This document shows, piece after piece, positions 40,627-44,101 of a stretch of DNA of 64,000 bases. The notes below the pieces were generated by a model, which had not been told where the DNA came from, searched no databases, and was given only the letters and a program-made list of their open reading frames with translations. Numbering within the stretch: position 1 is the stretch's first letter; each line of letters starts with the position of its first letter. The position numbers were made by a program, and so were the translations under genes. Source of the DNA: Pseudomonas sp. B6002 (GTDB lineage: Bacteria; Pseudomonadota; Gammaproteobacteria; Pseudomonadales; Pseudomonadaceae); the NCBI RefSeq assembly GCF_013385985.1, contig NZ_JACAOY010000004.1, forward strand, positions 281,580-345,579, given 5' to 3'.

Positions 40627-41277
40627 TTATGCCCGCACAAAAGGGTTCTCGCGCATTTCATCGCCCAAGCGGGTGTCCGGGCCATGGCCGGCCACCACCG
40701 TCGCCCCTTCATCCAGTGTGTACAAGCGCTGCTTGATCGACCGCACGATGGTCGCCTGGTCCCCGCCCCACAGGTCGGTACGCCCTACCCCACGACGAAA
40801 CAGGGTGTCGCCGGCAATCAACAGTTTGGCGTCGGCAAACCAGAAACTCATCGACCCCGGCGTATGCCCAGGGGTATGCAGCGCCACACCGCAGCCGCAG
40901 GCCAATTCCTCTTCGTGCTCAAGCCAGCGGTCCGGTGAGGGTACTGGAGTGTAGGGCACACGAAACATCTGGCATTGCATTTCCAGGTTATCCCAGAGGA
41001 ATTGATCCTCCTTGTGCAGATGCAGGGTAGCGCCGGTCTTCTCTTTCAACTGGCCGGACGCGAGGAAATGATCAAGATGGGCGTGGGTATGGATGATGCT
41101 CACCACCTTGAGGCCCAGCGCGTCGAGGCGGGCCAGGATCAGCTCATGATTGCCGCCTGGGTCGACCACGATGGCTTTTTTGGTGATCGGATCGCCAATG
41201 ATGGTGCAGTTGCACTGCAACGGGCCGACGGGGAACGTTTCGCGGATCAAAGGCGGTCTATCGGTTTGCATGAACAT
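40627..41277 (-). CDS. Metallo-beta-lactamase-fold hydrolase (YcbL/GloB-like)
   Basis: 216 residues. The metal motif HxHxDH is visible as IIHTHAHLDHFLASG near residue 60, with a downstream His in VALHTPGHTPGSM, an Asp in LLIAGDTLFRRGVG and a C-terminal His in TVVAGHGPDT. This single-domain, glyoxalase II-like set typically hydrolyses thioesters such as S-lactoylglutathione. It lies only 24 bases downstream of the three tiny genes at 41302-42040 on the same strand, so it might be read through from their promoter. Confidence 0.9.
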   Translation of the reverse strand: MFMQTDRPPLIRETFPVGPLQCNCTIIGDPITKKAIVVDPGGNHELILARLDALGLKVVSIIHTHAHLDHFLASGQLKEKTGATLHLHKEDQFLWDNLEMQCQMFRVPYTPVPSPDRWLEHEEELACGCGVALHTPGHTPGSMSFWFADAKLLIAGDTLFRRGVGRTDLWGGDQATIVRSIKQRLYTLDEGATVVAGHGPDTRLGDEMRENPFVRA

Positions 41278-41301: not shown

Positions 41302-41535
41302 TTAAACCGGTGACGTGCCTGGCGGCATGTCATCAGCGCCCAGGCAGCTGTCACGCCGTTTCAATACCTGAATCGTGCAACTTGTTTCGCACGCGCGCAT
41401 GCGTTCCCGGACGTCATCCACCCGAGCATTGAACCAGACAAAATAGATACCCAAGCCAACACTGATGACCAGTATCAAACCTATGCAAAATGTCGACTGC
41501 ATGGAATAGCTCTCCACCTCTGAATCAACACTCAT
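41302..41535 (-). CDS. Small single-pass membrane protein, unknown (third gene of cluster)
   Basis: 77 residues. A short acidic N-terminus is followed by one membrane helix (about 14-34, FCIGLILVISVGLGIYFVWF) and a charged tail with three Cys (MRACETSCTIQVLKRRDSC). No domain is recognised. GAGGTG precedes the ATG, which overlaps the upstream gene's stop as ATGA, so it is very likely translated. Its GC content is lower than surrounding genes. Orientation is not decided. The Cys residues suggest a disulfide if the tail is periplasmic. Confidence 0.7.
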   Translation of the reverse strand: MSVDSEVESYSMQSTFCIGLILVISVGLGIYFVWFNARVDDVRERMRACETSCTIQVLKRRDSCLGADDMPPGTSPV

Positions 41536-41762
41536 CGGATCACCTCGCCAGGAGCCTCAAAGACATTTGAGTGGAGTGCCATCGATGAATCCGTGGAAGA
41601 GGGATTCACCACGCCCAGCAGCGCGGGCAGCAGCTGCGAAATGAAGAGCGGCATACTTCGCCTCACTGCCGCTTCCGGTTCGCTCTCGACGACGCCACAT
41701 GAGCCCATCGCCAGAAAAAACATCAGCAAGAGCGTGGTCTCAAGCAATGAGGCCCGGCGCAT
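41532..41762 (-). CDS. Small secreted or lipid-anchored protein, unknown (second gene of cluster)
   Basis: 76 residues. The N-terminus MRRASLLETTLLLMFFLAMG is a signal or anchor segment ending near Cys22 (AMGSCGVV). That resembles a weak lipobox, so it may be a lipoprotein. The remainder (about 54 residues) has a second hydrophobic patch (LFISQLLPALLGVV) that could associate with membrane. The ATG shares one base with the stop of the first gene (TAATG) and has AAGGA upstream. No homologous family is recognised. Confidence 0.7.
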   Translation of the reverse strand: MRRASLLETTLLLMFFLAMGSCGVVESEPEAAVRRSMPLFISQLLPALLGVVNPSSTDSSMALHSNVFEAPGEVIR

Positions 41763-42040
41763 TATCCTTGCCTCTCAAGCGAGGCCCCTGGAACCGGGCA
41801 GAGTTGTACCAAACGGTATGTCCTCTCAGGCGCGTTGAGGCCATTGACGATGAGTTCATTCTCAAAAGCTTCGCTATCAACCTGCTTTATCTGCGAAACA
41901 TCTTCGAGGCAGGGAGGTTCAACCTCCAAACTAATATCTGCATACAACTCTCTTGCGTCGGAGCGAGCGAAAGGACTGATCATCATCCCTATGATGATGA
42001 CAACCAGAATCAGGGCCCTGCTAGTACCGTAGCTATTCAT
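41762..42040 (-). CDS. Small secreted protein, unknown (first gene of cluster)
   Basis: 92 residues. The signal peptide has a hydrophobic core at about 9-23 (ALILVVIIIGMMISPF) and probable cleavage near residue 28. The mature part is acidic, about 64 residues, with two Cys (PPCLED and VQLCPVP) that could form one disulfide. A strong AGGAGT ribosome binding site is seven bases before the ATG. Rare codons (ATA, AGG, AGA) and lower GC separate it from core genes. It is the first of three overlapping genes, divergent from the two-component system at 42171. I do not recognise the protein. Confidence 0.72.
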   Translation of the reverse strand: MNSYGTSRALILVVIIIGMMISPFARSDARELYADISLEVEPPCLEDVSQIKQVDSEAFENELIVNGLNAPERTYRLVQLCPVPGASLERQG

Positions 42041-42089
42041 GCCGTTACTCCTGTTTCAGGGAAAGACGGGAGCACCGTAAAAGAGCCGA

Positions 42090-42107
42090 GGTTACTAACC
42101 GGTTAAC
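42090..42107. promoter_or_regulatory. Candidate response-regulator binding site (11-bp direct repeat)
   Basis: GGTTAC at 42090-42095 and GGTTAA at 42101-42106 are direct repeats with an 11-base period, the usual spacing for OmpR/PhoB-class dimers. The junction also forms the palindrome TAACCGGTTA at 42096-42105. The site lies between the divergent small-gene cluster and the regulator. Confidence 0.45.
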
Positions 42108-42118
42108 ACAGGCGAAGG

Positions 42119-42147
42119 GGGCTCCAGGGGGCGCTAAGCTGGAGCCC
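42119..42147 (+). other. Hairpin in the leader of the response regulator gene
   Basis: A 9-bp perfect stem, GGGCTCCAG (42119-42127) and CTGGAGCCC (42139-42147), with an 11-base loop. It lies 23 bases before the regulator ATG. No T run follows, so it is not an intrinsic terminator; a translational or protein-binding role is possible. Confidence 0.5.
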
Positions 42148-42170
42148 GTTCAACGCAGGGAACACTGCCT

Positions 42171-42842
42171 ATGCATATCCACACCTTGCTGATCGAAGAC
42201 AACCTCGACCTCGCCGCGACGCTTGTCGAATACCTGGATATCAGCGGAATCATTTGTGACCACGCCGCTGATGGTCAAAGCGGCCTCAACCTGGCGCGAC
42301 ACTCGCCTTACGACGTCATCCTCCTGGATATCATGTTGCCCAGGCTCGACGGCCAGAAAGTCTGCCGCACCTTGCGAGAAGCTGGCGTGCAGACCCCCAT
42401 CCTCATGATCACCTCCCTGGACAGCCTGCAAGACAAGCTGGACGGTTTTGCCTGCGGTACCGATGATTACCTCGTCAAGCCGTTCGAGCTGCCCGAACTG
42501 GTTGCCCGCCTTCGCGCCTTGAGCCAGCGACTCAGCAGCCAGGCCAGCCTGTTGCAAGTCGCCGACCTGCAAATGAACCTCGCAACACGCGAGGCGAGGC
42601 GCAACAACCAACGCCTGCATCTTTCGCCCACCGCCTGGCAACTGCTTGAGTGCCTGCTGCGAGCCAGCCCGAACCCTGTCAGCCGAGAACGCCTGGAACG
42701 AGCGATCTGGGGCGATGAGCCGCCTGATAGCAACAGTTTGAAAGTCCACCTGTGCCGCCTGCGTCGCAGTGTGGACAAGGGGTTCACCGTGCCCTTGATC
42801 CACACGCAAGCCGGTGTGGGTTTTTGCCTCAGAACCCCATGA
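42171..42842 (+). CDS. OmpR-family response regulator (QseB/PmrA-like)
   Basis: 223 residues: a receiver (about 1-118) with LIEDNLDLAATLVEYL, phospho-Asp in DVILLDIMLPRLDGQKV and Lys in YLVKPFELPELV, then a winged-helix DNA-binding domain (about 128-220) with LHLSPTAWQLLECLLRASP and VKVHLCRLRRSVDKG-like recognition residues (seen as LKVHLCRLRRSVDKG). It overlaps its kinase by four bases (ATGA). It is divergent from three small membrane/secreted genes and likely controls them and itself. No orthologous named system is recognised. Confidence 0.9.
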   Translation: MHIHTLLIEDNLDLAATLVEYLDISGIICDHAADGQSGLNLARHSPYDVILLDIMLPRLDGQKVCRTLREAGVQTPILMITSLDSLQDKLDGFACGTDDYLVKPFELPELVARLRALSQRLSSQASLLQVADLQMNLATREARRNNQRLHLSPTAWQLLECLLRASPNPVSRERLERAIWGDEPPDSNSLKVHLCRLRRSVDKGFTVPLIHTQAGVGFCLRTP

Positions 42843-44101
42843 AACTGACTCTCAGCCTGAAATGGGCCATCGGCGCAGGCGCCTCGCTCGTGCTGGTAGT
42901 GAGCTTGTTTGTGTACGTGCACGCTGTCTCGAGCTTCTCACGGCACACGCTGGACTACGTTGTCAGCCGGATGATTGAAGAAGAAGCGCTTTATTTTGCC
43001 CAGCGCTATGAAAAAGACCCTCTGACGCCACTGCCCCACGGCTTCGCCTTCTCTGCTGTGATCGGCAAAGACGCCTTGCCCGCACCTTTACGAACACTTC
43101 TGCAAACACCCCCATCACGTGTGATCGGTACCGTGCAGGTATTCGACCACCCCGAGACCACCCACATACAGGCGCAACGTTTGTACGAAGGGAAAACCCT
43201 TTATCTGTTCGAATCCCCACGAGACGAAGATGCCCGCGATGAACCGCGTCCATCCGACAACTATTGGGAAACCAAATTTCTCGATTTGCTGCTGATCGGC
43301 CTTTCGGTTCCAGTCGTTGCCCTCATGGTGATCATCTTTCTGGTCTACCGCGTCGTCAGCCCACTGCATCGCTTGACGCAATGGTCGCAGAGACTCGCAA
43401 AGCCATCTTCGGAGCCCACCGCGCGCCCTGGCTTTTGCTACACAGAGTTCAACCTGCTGGCGTCTTCGCTCTCCGAAAGTGTCAGTAGCGTCAAGGCTGC
43501 CACCTTAAGAGAGGAGCGCTTGCTGCGTTACACCAGCCACGAATTGCGCACCCCGCTGGCAGTGCTCAAGGCCAACCTGCAGTTGCTGGAAGCCAAGGGC
43601 GAACTCTCCAGCGCATTACTGCGTATCCAGCGCTCCGTGCGGGATATGCAGGGCATTACCGAAACGCTGCTATGGATGAGCAGTGAACAGAGCAAGTCTC
43701 TCCTGGCGATCAAAGTAAACATGGCACGGCTGCTGGACGAGTTAGTGGAGGATAACCGTTACCTCATCAACTCACGTCACCTGACGCTGACGATGGACGT
43801 GGAAGACGCCCCCTACCAGCTTCCCCCCAACGCCTGTCGCATTGTTATTGGCAACCTGCTGCGTAACGCGCTGCAATATGCAGATCAGGGTTGCATTCAA
43901 ATTGCTTGCAACACCCAAACATTCACCATGGTCAACCACATCGCGGGCACGCCAAAAGAGGCCGAGTCCGCCGACTATGGATATGGCTTGGGGCTGGAGT
44001 TGGTACAACTTTTATGTGAAAAACTCGGCTGGCATCTTCATCAGCACAAGGAAGGGCACTATTTCACGGTAAGGCTGATGTTCGCGCAGCGCTCGCCCTG
44101 A
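42839..44101 (+). CDS. Sensor histidine kinase with degenerate ATP-binding G1 box
   Basis: 420 residues. TM1 is at about 9-29, a periplasmic sensor of about 115 residues (30-145) follows, and TM2 is at about 147-172, then a HAMP-like linker. The H-box YTSHELRTPLAVLKANLQLL has the phospho-acceptor at His234, and the N-box is IVIGNLLRNALQYA. The G1 box DxGxG is not evident: the segment reads FTMVNHIAGTPKEAESADYG before the G2 box YGLGLELVQLL. Such shortened ATP lids occur in some proteobacterial kinases, so activity is plausible but uncertain. The sensor domain has no recognised ligand fold. Confidence 0.88.
   Translation: MKLTLSLKWAIGAGASLVLVVSLFVYVHAVSSFSRHTLDYVVSRMIEEEALYFAQRYEKDPLTPLPHGFAFSAVIGKDALPAPLRTLLQTPPSRVIGTVQVFDHPETTHIQAQRLYEGKTLYLFESPRDEDARDEPRPSDNYWETKFLDLLLIGLSVPVVALMVIIFLVYRVVSPLHRLTQWSQRLAKPSSEPTARPGFCYTEFNLLASSLSESVSSVKAATLREERLLRYTSHELRTPLAVLKANLQLLEAKGELSSALLRIQRSVRDMQGITETLLWMSSEQSKSLLAIKVNMARLLDELVEDNRYLINSRHLTLTMDVEDAPYQLPPNACRIVIGNLLRNALQYADQGCIQIACNTQTFTMVNHIAGTPKEAESADYGYGLGLELVQLLCEKLGWHLHQHKEGHYFTVRLMFAQRSP

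Follow-up and report, generated by a model that had tools for sequence, protein, structure and literature searches.

A predicted module of a two-component system and a divergently encoded small membrane protein in Pseudomonas

Results

The DNA analysed here is a stretch of 64,000 nucleotides from Pseudomonas sp. B6002 (contig NZ_JACAOY010000004.1, positions 281,580 to 345,579; hereafter the window), in which positions 41302 to 44101 hold the genes of a response regulator and a sensor histidine kinase on the forward strand and, facing them across a gap of 130 bp, three small genes on the reverse strand, s92, s76 and s77. Based on gene order and sequence comparison, the regulator, the kinase and a divergent gene C (s77 in the window), usually preceded by a gene A, can be regarded as a conserved module. 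The gene A position is occupied by s92 (41762 to 42040, 92 amino acids (aa)), recognised by its open reading frame (ORF), a ribosome-site-like sequence and its hydrophobicity. It overlaps s76 (41532 to 41762, 76 aa) by 1 bp (TAATG), s76 in turn overlaps s77 (41302 to 41535, 77 aa) by 4 bp (ATGA), and s77 is identified by profile matches, co-occurrence with the kinase and its ratio of nonsynonymous to synonymous substitutions (dN/dS). By eye, purine-rich, ribosome-site-like sequence lies upstream of all three ATG codons. The GC content amounts to 49.8% in s92, 58.4% in s76 and 51.7% in s77 (window, 61.1%), the products contain 2, 1 and 4 Cys residues, respectively, and each has one strong hydrophobic stretch (best 19-residue Kyte-Doolittle means 2.14, 1.82 and 2.43), with a second, weaker one (mean 1.29) and a marginal lipobox (by eye) in s76. 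The s92 product has a putative signal peptide or membrane helix, an S-D-A cleavage-like site (by eye) and both Cys residues in the mature part; that of s77 is a predicted single-pass membrane protein with Cys in the C-terminal tail. A preliminary description of the locus, made from the sequence, is borne out in this arrangement, including the divergent gap, the hydrophobic segments, the Cys residues, the lower GC content and a metallo-beta-lactamase (MBL)-fold gene that begins 24 bp past s77 on the same strand. It had also recognised no family for the three small proteins, and profile searches of Pfam and NCBIfam returned none at E<=1; nor did these two libraries, which may or may not include an MgrB model, give a match to MgrB at this threshold. 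The best match among the PHROGs phage families was no better than E 0.11, and among plasmids 18 records match the regulator part only and 2 match over 45 bp, with none matching s77.

The regulator (42171 to 42842) is of the OmpR/PhoB family, with receiver and winged-helix output domains above the Pfam cut-offs (Response_reg PF00072, 1.7e-24; Trans_reg_C PF00486, 2.1e-17), and its gene overlaps that of the kinase (42839 to 44101) by 4 bp. According to Pfam (HisKA 2e-11, HATPase_c 3.1e-5), models and fold searches, the kinase consists of a transmembrane segment, a periplasmic domain (residues ~30 to 150), a second transmembrane segment, a HisKA domain with the phospho-acceptor His in the motif SHELRTP, and a shortened ATPase domain; the periplasmic domain is small and putatively Cache/PDC-like, a type in which a long N-terminal helix precedes a PAS-like sheet. 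The G1 motif (DxGxG) is a motif of the ATP lid, and in nine kinases and two distant ones its classical form is missing from the stretch that separates N366 from the G2 motif GxGLGL. The designation of the regulator as QseB-type in the preliminary description had to be dropped, as the NCBIfam equivalogs gave 123.6 bits for QseB (cut-off 345) and 54.2 for QseC (cut-off 475); among the 25 of 101 NCBIfam regulator models listed, the regulator reached no cut-off. Within the solved-structure set, no sequence match was found between the kinase sensor and ParS. Asp-rich and HDHE-like loops, possible cation-binding sites, are present in most related sensors and largely missing from the kinases of the window and of locus L012. 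In Marinomonas, a distantly related regulator/kinase pair (L047, 1991 to 9068) is divergent from ExbB/ExbD/TonB-like and TonB-dependent-receptor-like genes (by eye), and thus the wider kinase family can face other operons.

The association of gene C with the kinase was followed in 399 Pseudomonas genomes, the window's own included; this set and that of the relatives are each a sample. In named genomes, kinase relatives were found with an alignment query, a single-sequence query having given no match there. At E<=1e-60 the kinase was matched in 22 of the 399 genomes, and the gene C profile at E<=0.01 in 70, of which 23 had strong matches (E<=4.3e-20). All 22 kinase genomes carry a strong gene C on the same contig and the opposite strand, 801 to 1301 bp apart, and the single genome with a strong gene C and no kinase match (G242) has coordinates that fit L052, where the contig ends inside the kinase. 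Neither kinase nor strong gene C was detected at these thresholds in 376 genomes. Species with the module include P. protegens, P. chlororaphis and P. brassicacearum, which are plant-associated.

For a comparison between loci we used 34, namely 28 Pseudomonas loci (27 with a full kinase, one with a cut one), five further loci and the window; L013, L015 and L016, identical to others upstream, were left out. Gene C, detected by profile match, adjoins the regulator divergently in all 34, nine of these loci having themselves supplied rows to the gene C and gene A profiles. Its frames measure 77 to 130 aa with uncertain start sites. The median pairwise dN/dS is 0.35 for gene C (151 pairs from 24 of the 34 loci, ten having been dropped by a motif filter) and 0.41 for gene A (96 equal-length pairs, 26 loci; 0.39 over the first 50 codons), in both cases for pairs with dS of 0.1 to 0.9. 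By these medians, gene C and gene A are both under protein-level constraint, and gene C under purifying selection. That the small frames are non-functional or unrelated passengers beside a two-component system would agree with s76 having no relatives and s92 being nearly unique; it is made very improbable by a gene C that is conserved, constrained and invariably present with the kinase.

Gene A is present in 29 of the 34 loci. In 27 loci other than the window the position holds short proteins of 54 to 60 aa, and the only clear relative of s92 is a 93-aa protein at the same position in L012 (40% identity; tblastn 1.5e-12 with eight loci searched). A sample of 95 other genomes, which did not include the source of L012 (G132), gave no s92 match at E<=0.01. 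When scored with a profile of the short A proteins, s92 reaches 5.3 bits, and the highest of 300 shuffles reaches 3.8. The s76 frame found no credible relative in 398 other Pseudomonas genomes (best E 0.0138) and is to all appearances a lineage-specific orphan, the case for it consisting only of its exact overlaps, a GC content at third codon positions of 0.69 and the ribosome-site-like sequence. Protein-level conservation of the small frames, a point raised in the preliminary description, is seen for gene C and not for s76. A derivation of s76 from a copy of gene A is unsupported, since 3 of 300 shuffles also attain its profile score of 4.5 bits.

The properties of gene A might lead one to suspect an exported peptide ligand of the module's own kinase, with gene C as its maturation or anchoring factor: the N-terminus is signal-peptide-like, the tail is variable, the gene stands first in the operon and it differs between subgroups. 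The peptide would measure ~30 aa after cleavage in most species and ~60 aa in the window, with cleavage sites judged by eye. This proposal is doubtful, as kinase and gene C are kept without gene A in five of the 34 loci (L020 to L023 and L046, the P. brassicacearum locus among them) and no gene for a processing peptidase or exporter was recognised by eye at a constant place beside the module. A kinase that senses a self-made peptide presented or gated by gene C would be a private, fast-diverging channel relocating as a unit, which we consider improbable.

The gap between the two divergent units contains a tandem direct repeat, GGTTACTAACCGGTTAAC (42090 to 42107, forward strand), a candidate operator with an 11-bp period and the form GGTTA-N6-GGTNAAC. 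OmpR-class regulators usually bind direct repeats of this period. The pattern is found in 34 of 34 divergent promoters and in 1 of 6800 shuffled regions, and it starts 81 to 90 bp upstream of the regulator start; GGTTAAC-N4-GGTAAAC is the variant in 26 loci, GGTTAAC-N4-GGTGAAC in six and GGTTACN-N4-GGTTAAC in L012 and the window. At 27 nt past the window's box lies TAAGCT (42135 to 42140, forward strand), by consensus only a candidate -10 element of the regulator promoter, and in the 33 relatives TATNCT follows the box at 26 to 27 nt. The box thus defined is strongly tied to the module and would be bound by the regulator. Strict matches in the window's genome number two, the module's own and one inside a receptor-like ORF (two for the reversed control). 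Six extra box sites were opened, three of them beside a MutY-like gene (by eye) and one in a receptor-like ORF, with no evident link.

Two further observations concern these sequences. In three genomes with the module (L074, L075 and L079, each at position 1501) a box-like sequence, GGTTACTTTNAGGTTAAC, lies close to a MutY-like gene (by eye). Around the candidate -10 element of the window (42119 to 42147) there is a perfect 9-bp inverted repeat, GGGCTCCAG/CTGGAGCCC; no such repeat (arm 9, loop 3 to 20) was found past the box in the other 33 loci.

The co-divergence of gene C with parts of the two-component system was analysed by Mantel tests on pairwise distances among 33 loci, L052 being left out for its cut kinase. 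In the main group of 26 loci (our own grouping, without the window, L012 and the five loci lacking gene A), gene C correlates with the sensor at a partial r of 0.589 given linker, kinase and regulator (p 0.001), with the kinase at -0.037 given sensor and regulator, and with the regulator at -0.005 given sensor and kinase; as a control, regulator and kinase correlate at 0.678 given the sensor. These values are suggestive of a gene C whose divergence tracks the periplasmic sensor more than the catalytic core of the kinase. Since gene C follows the sensor in this way, the earlier proposal that the small proteins are a signal feeding the kinase stays plausible.

The MBL-fold hydrolase gene (40627 to 41277, reverse strand) belongs to the old chromosomal neighbourhood and lies outside the module. 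In 18 of 18 other genomes examined (20 matched), no module stands next to the MBL gene and the adjoining OmpA gene, and in eight of these MalT lies 92 to 156 bp from the MBL gene; the sole regulator match near an MBL gene (L153, 31%) lies on the far side and is unrelated in kind. Conversely, of the 33 other module loci eight have both MBL and MalT homologues, five have one side and 20 neither in the stretch fetched, some contigs being short, and in 23 the fetched stretch holds no MBL homologue. The module genes thus appear to stay together at different sites, given the 20 loci without either neighbour. Since MBL-bearing relatives lack the module genes beside MBL, the module at the window site would be the result of an insertion or of repeated loss, and elsewhere it occurs as a unit. 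As to an insertion signature, the MBL-MalT gaps of relatives can be aligned no further than the ends of the genes, with no target duplication seen. Among the relatives L012 has the module closest to the window's (regulator 79%, kinase 54%), and L019, at the same site as the window, reaches 69% and 47%, which hints at replacement or fast divergence.

A five-gene system in which the small-gene operon has the MBL-fold hydrolase as its functional output would draw on the position of MBL, from which read-through is likely, 24 bp past s77 on the same strand. The regular occurrence of MBL and OmpA without the module, with MalT next door in some genomes, and the many module loci without an MBL homologue make it highly unlikely. 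The five-gene block envisaged in the preliminary description likewise does not hold, the MBL gene being at home in relatives without the module, s76 being lineage-specific and s92 having its one 93-aa relative. Its proposal that the small genes are linked to, and probably controlled by, the divergent two-component system has gained support from the co-occurrence, the box and the joint presence at different sites.

Weaker gene C-like matches extend beyond the module. They are the only ones in 47 other genomes (E 1.1e-11 to 0.006), and they occur as second matches in some of the 23 strong genomes, the window's included (contig 7). Ten such loci were opened, and by eye none adjoins this two-component system. 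In eight of them (L114 to L120 and L123) the match is to a small protein that spans the membrane once and contains a stretch resembling G-x-Y-F-x-x-x-N-A-x-(V/A)-D, with a PAS-like gene (by eye) nearby in six; in L121 and L122 the match falls at the end of a protein of 321 to 327 aa and looks like chance. The member in the window's own genome (L114, 7747 to 8148, reverse strand), LGFYFVRLNARVDQERE, is a gene C-like single-pass protein with a PAS-like gene near it (by eye), and proteins similar to it occur in other Pseudomonas genomes.

Discussion

Among the papers listed in literature searches none was recognisably on this module, with the limit that a paper using only locus tags could be missed. 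What the comparisons show is which genes are present, how they co-occur and are oriented, a conserved box, purifying selection and a suggestive co-divergence with the sensor; binding of the regulator to the box, expression, a contact between gene C and the kinase, the sign of the effect and the signal are inferred. A sensor gene placed back to back with a tiny membrane gene under a common conserved site suggests that the tiny protein tunes the sensor. A periplasmic cue would reach the small Cache/PDC-like sensor domain of the kinase, which would phosphorylate the OmpR-class regulator; the regulator would bind the tandem GGTTAAC-type box between the divergent units and raise the transcription of both. 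The divergent products, predicted inner-membrane or periplasmic mini-proteins among which gene C is the constant one, would then act back on the kinase at its periplasmic sensor and transmembrane region, resetting or gating it. Their part could be that of a feedback subunit inhibiting the kinase, as with MgrB or SaePQ, or that of a co-sensor in the manner of MipBA. On balance, we consider it somewhat probable that the locus encodes such an autoregulated two-component module, with envelope mini-proteins acting on their own kinase.

Several observations weigh against this interpretation. Over all 33 loci gene C correlates with the regulator (0.334 given sensor and kinase) about as well as with the sensor (0.333 given kinase and regulator), and within the main group the regulator correlates with the sensor at 0.469, and gene C with the linker at 0.221, both given the kinase; as Mantel tests are lenient on related sequences, the co-divergence is suggestive only. 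The acidic loop of most sensors is absent from the window kinase, and gene A is missing from five loci. The link of s92 to the short A proteins, with which it may share descent, is weak, and the L012 protein scores only 3.4 bits against the same profile, equalled by 1 of 300 shuffles. Furthermore, eight other module genomes hold 36 strict box sites (1 to 7 per genome), eight of them the modules' own, as compared to 12 in the reversed control (0 to 2 per genome); the box need not be private and may serve a small wider regulon. Finally, in L012 (1 to 4558, reverse strand) a TpsB gene of the ShlB/FhaC secretion type (Pfam) comes 12 bp past gene C, with a haemagglutinin-like TpsA gene (by eye) after it, an output-like load.

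This last arrangement also fits a role of the mini-proteins as regulated effectors in envelope protection or remodelling, which would not act on the kinase and whose promoter would reflect plain co-regulation. Divergent targets of two-component systems are common, and the only strict box of the window's genome outside a coding-like ORF is the module's. Against such effectors stand the main-group divergence of gene C, which follows the kinase sensor and not the kinase core, and the lack of a recognisable effector domain in the small proteins, so that we regard this role as rather unlikely, while taking it seriously.

By analogy, the kinase-tuning module proposed here most likely works like SaePQ-SaeRS, MgrB-PhoQ or MipBA-ParRS, and we claim membership in none of them; homology to known accessory proteins was tested via family libraries, size and topology only. 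SaeS is without a large extracellular domain, unlike the module kinase with its large periplasmic domain. MgrB, of 47 aa, is unlinked to phoPQ, whereas gene C is longer (frames of 77 to 130 aa) and lies beside the kinase in every locus compared. As described in a review of SaePQRS (PMC5083920), this Staphylococcus aureus system likewise comprises two auxiliary envelope proteins expressed from a promoter with tandem regulator boxes, and SaePQ induces the phosphatase activity of SaeS. The tandem SaeR site listed there for the saeP promoter, GTTAAGAATTAGTTAA, reads GTTAA-N6-GTTAA, and its spacing is that of the module boxes (GTTAA-N6-GTAAA in 26 of 34 loci, GTTAC-N6-GTTAA in the window). According to this source, SaeP is a lipoprotein of 146 aa and SaeQ, of 157 aa, has four membrane helices; the 92-, 76- and 77-aa products, with one strong hydrophobic stretch each, differ from both. 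SaePQ are encoded upstream in the saeRS operon of a Gram-positive species, whereas the small genes of the module are divergent (PMC5083920). MgrB of enterobacteria inhibits PhoQ and responds to redox via periplasmic Cys (PMC2789325, PMC8534201); as a small single-pass, regulator-induced protein with periplasmic Cys that acts on the kinase in the membrane or periplasm of the PhoQ/PhoP system, it resembles what is proposed here. In Pseudomonas aeruginosa MipBA is encoded beside ParRS; ParR induces it, and a role as co-sensor of ParS has been proposed for it (PMC10936184). There MipA is described as a barrel of the outer membrane and MipB as a lipoprotein with a beta-lactamase fold, unlike the mini-proteins of the module. 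A likeness also exists to the small membrane proteins SafA, UgtL and MzrA, whose activation of a kinase is direct or runs via its periplasmic domain; SafA and MzrA connect two different systems (PMC8534201), in contrast to the small genes here, which belong to one module.

The tuning of sensor kinases by small membrane subunits is known from few cases, largely in enterobacteria and Gram-positives (PMC8534201). In Pseudomonas, gene C would be a candidate for such a kinase-tuning subunit that is recognisable from genome evolution alone, through its co-occurrence with the kinase, the operator-like box and the co-divergence with the sensor. The compact module may therefore serve as a testable case, and it adds two protein families that, for the members scanned, carry no Pfam or NCBIfam name.

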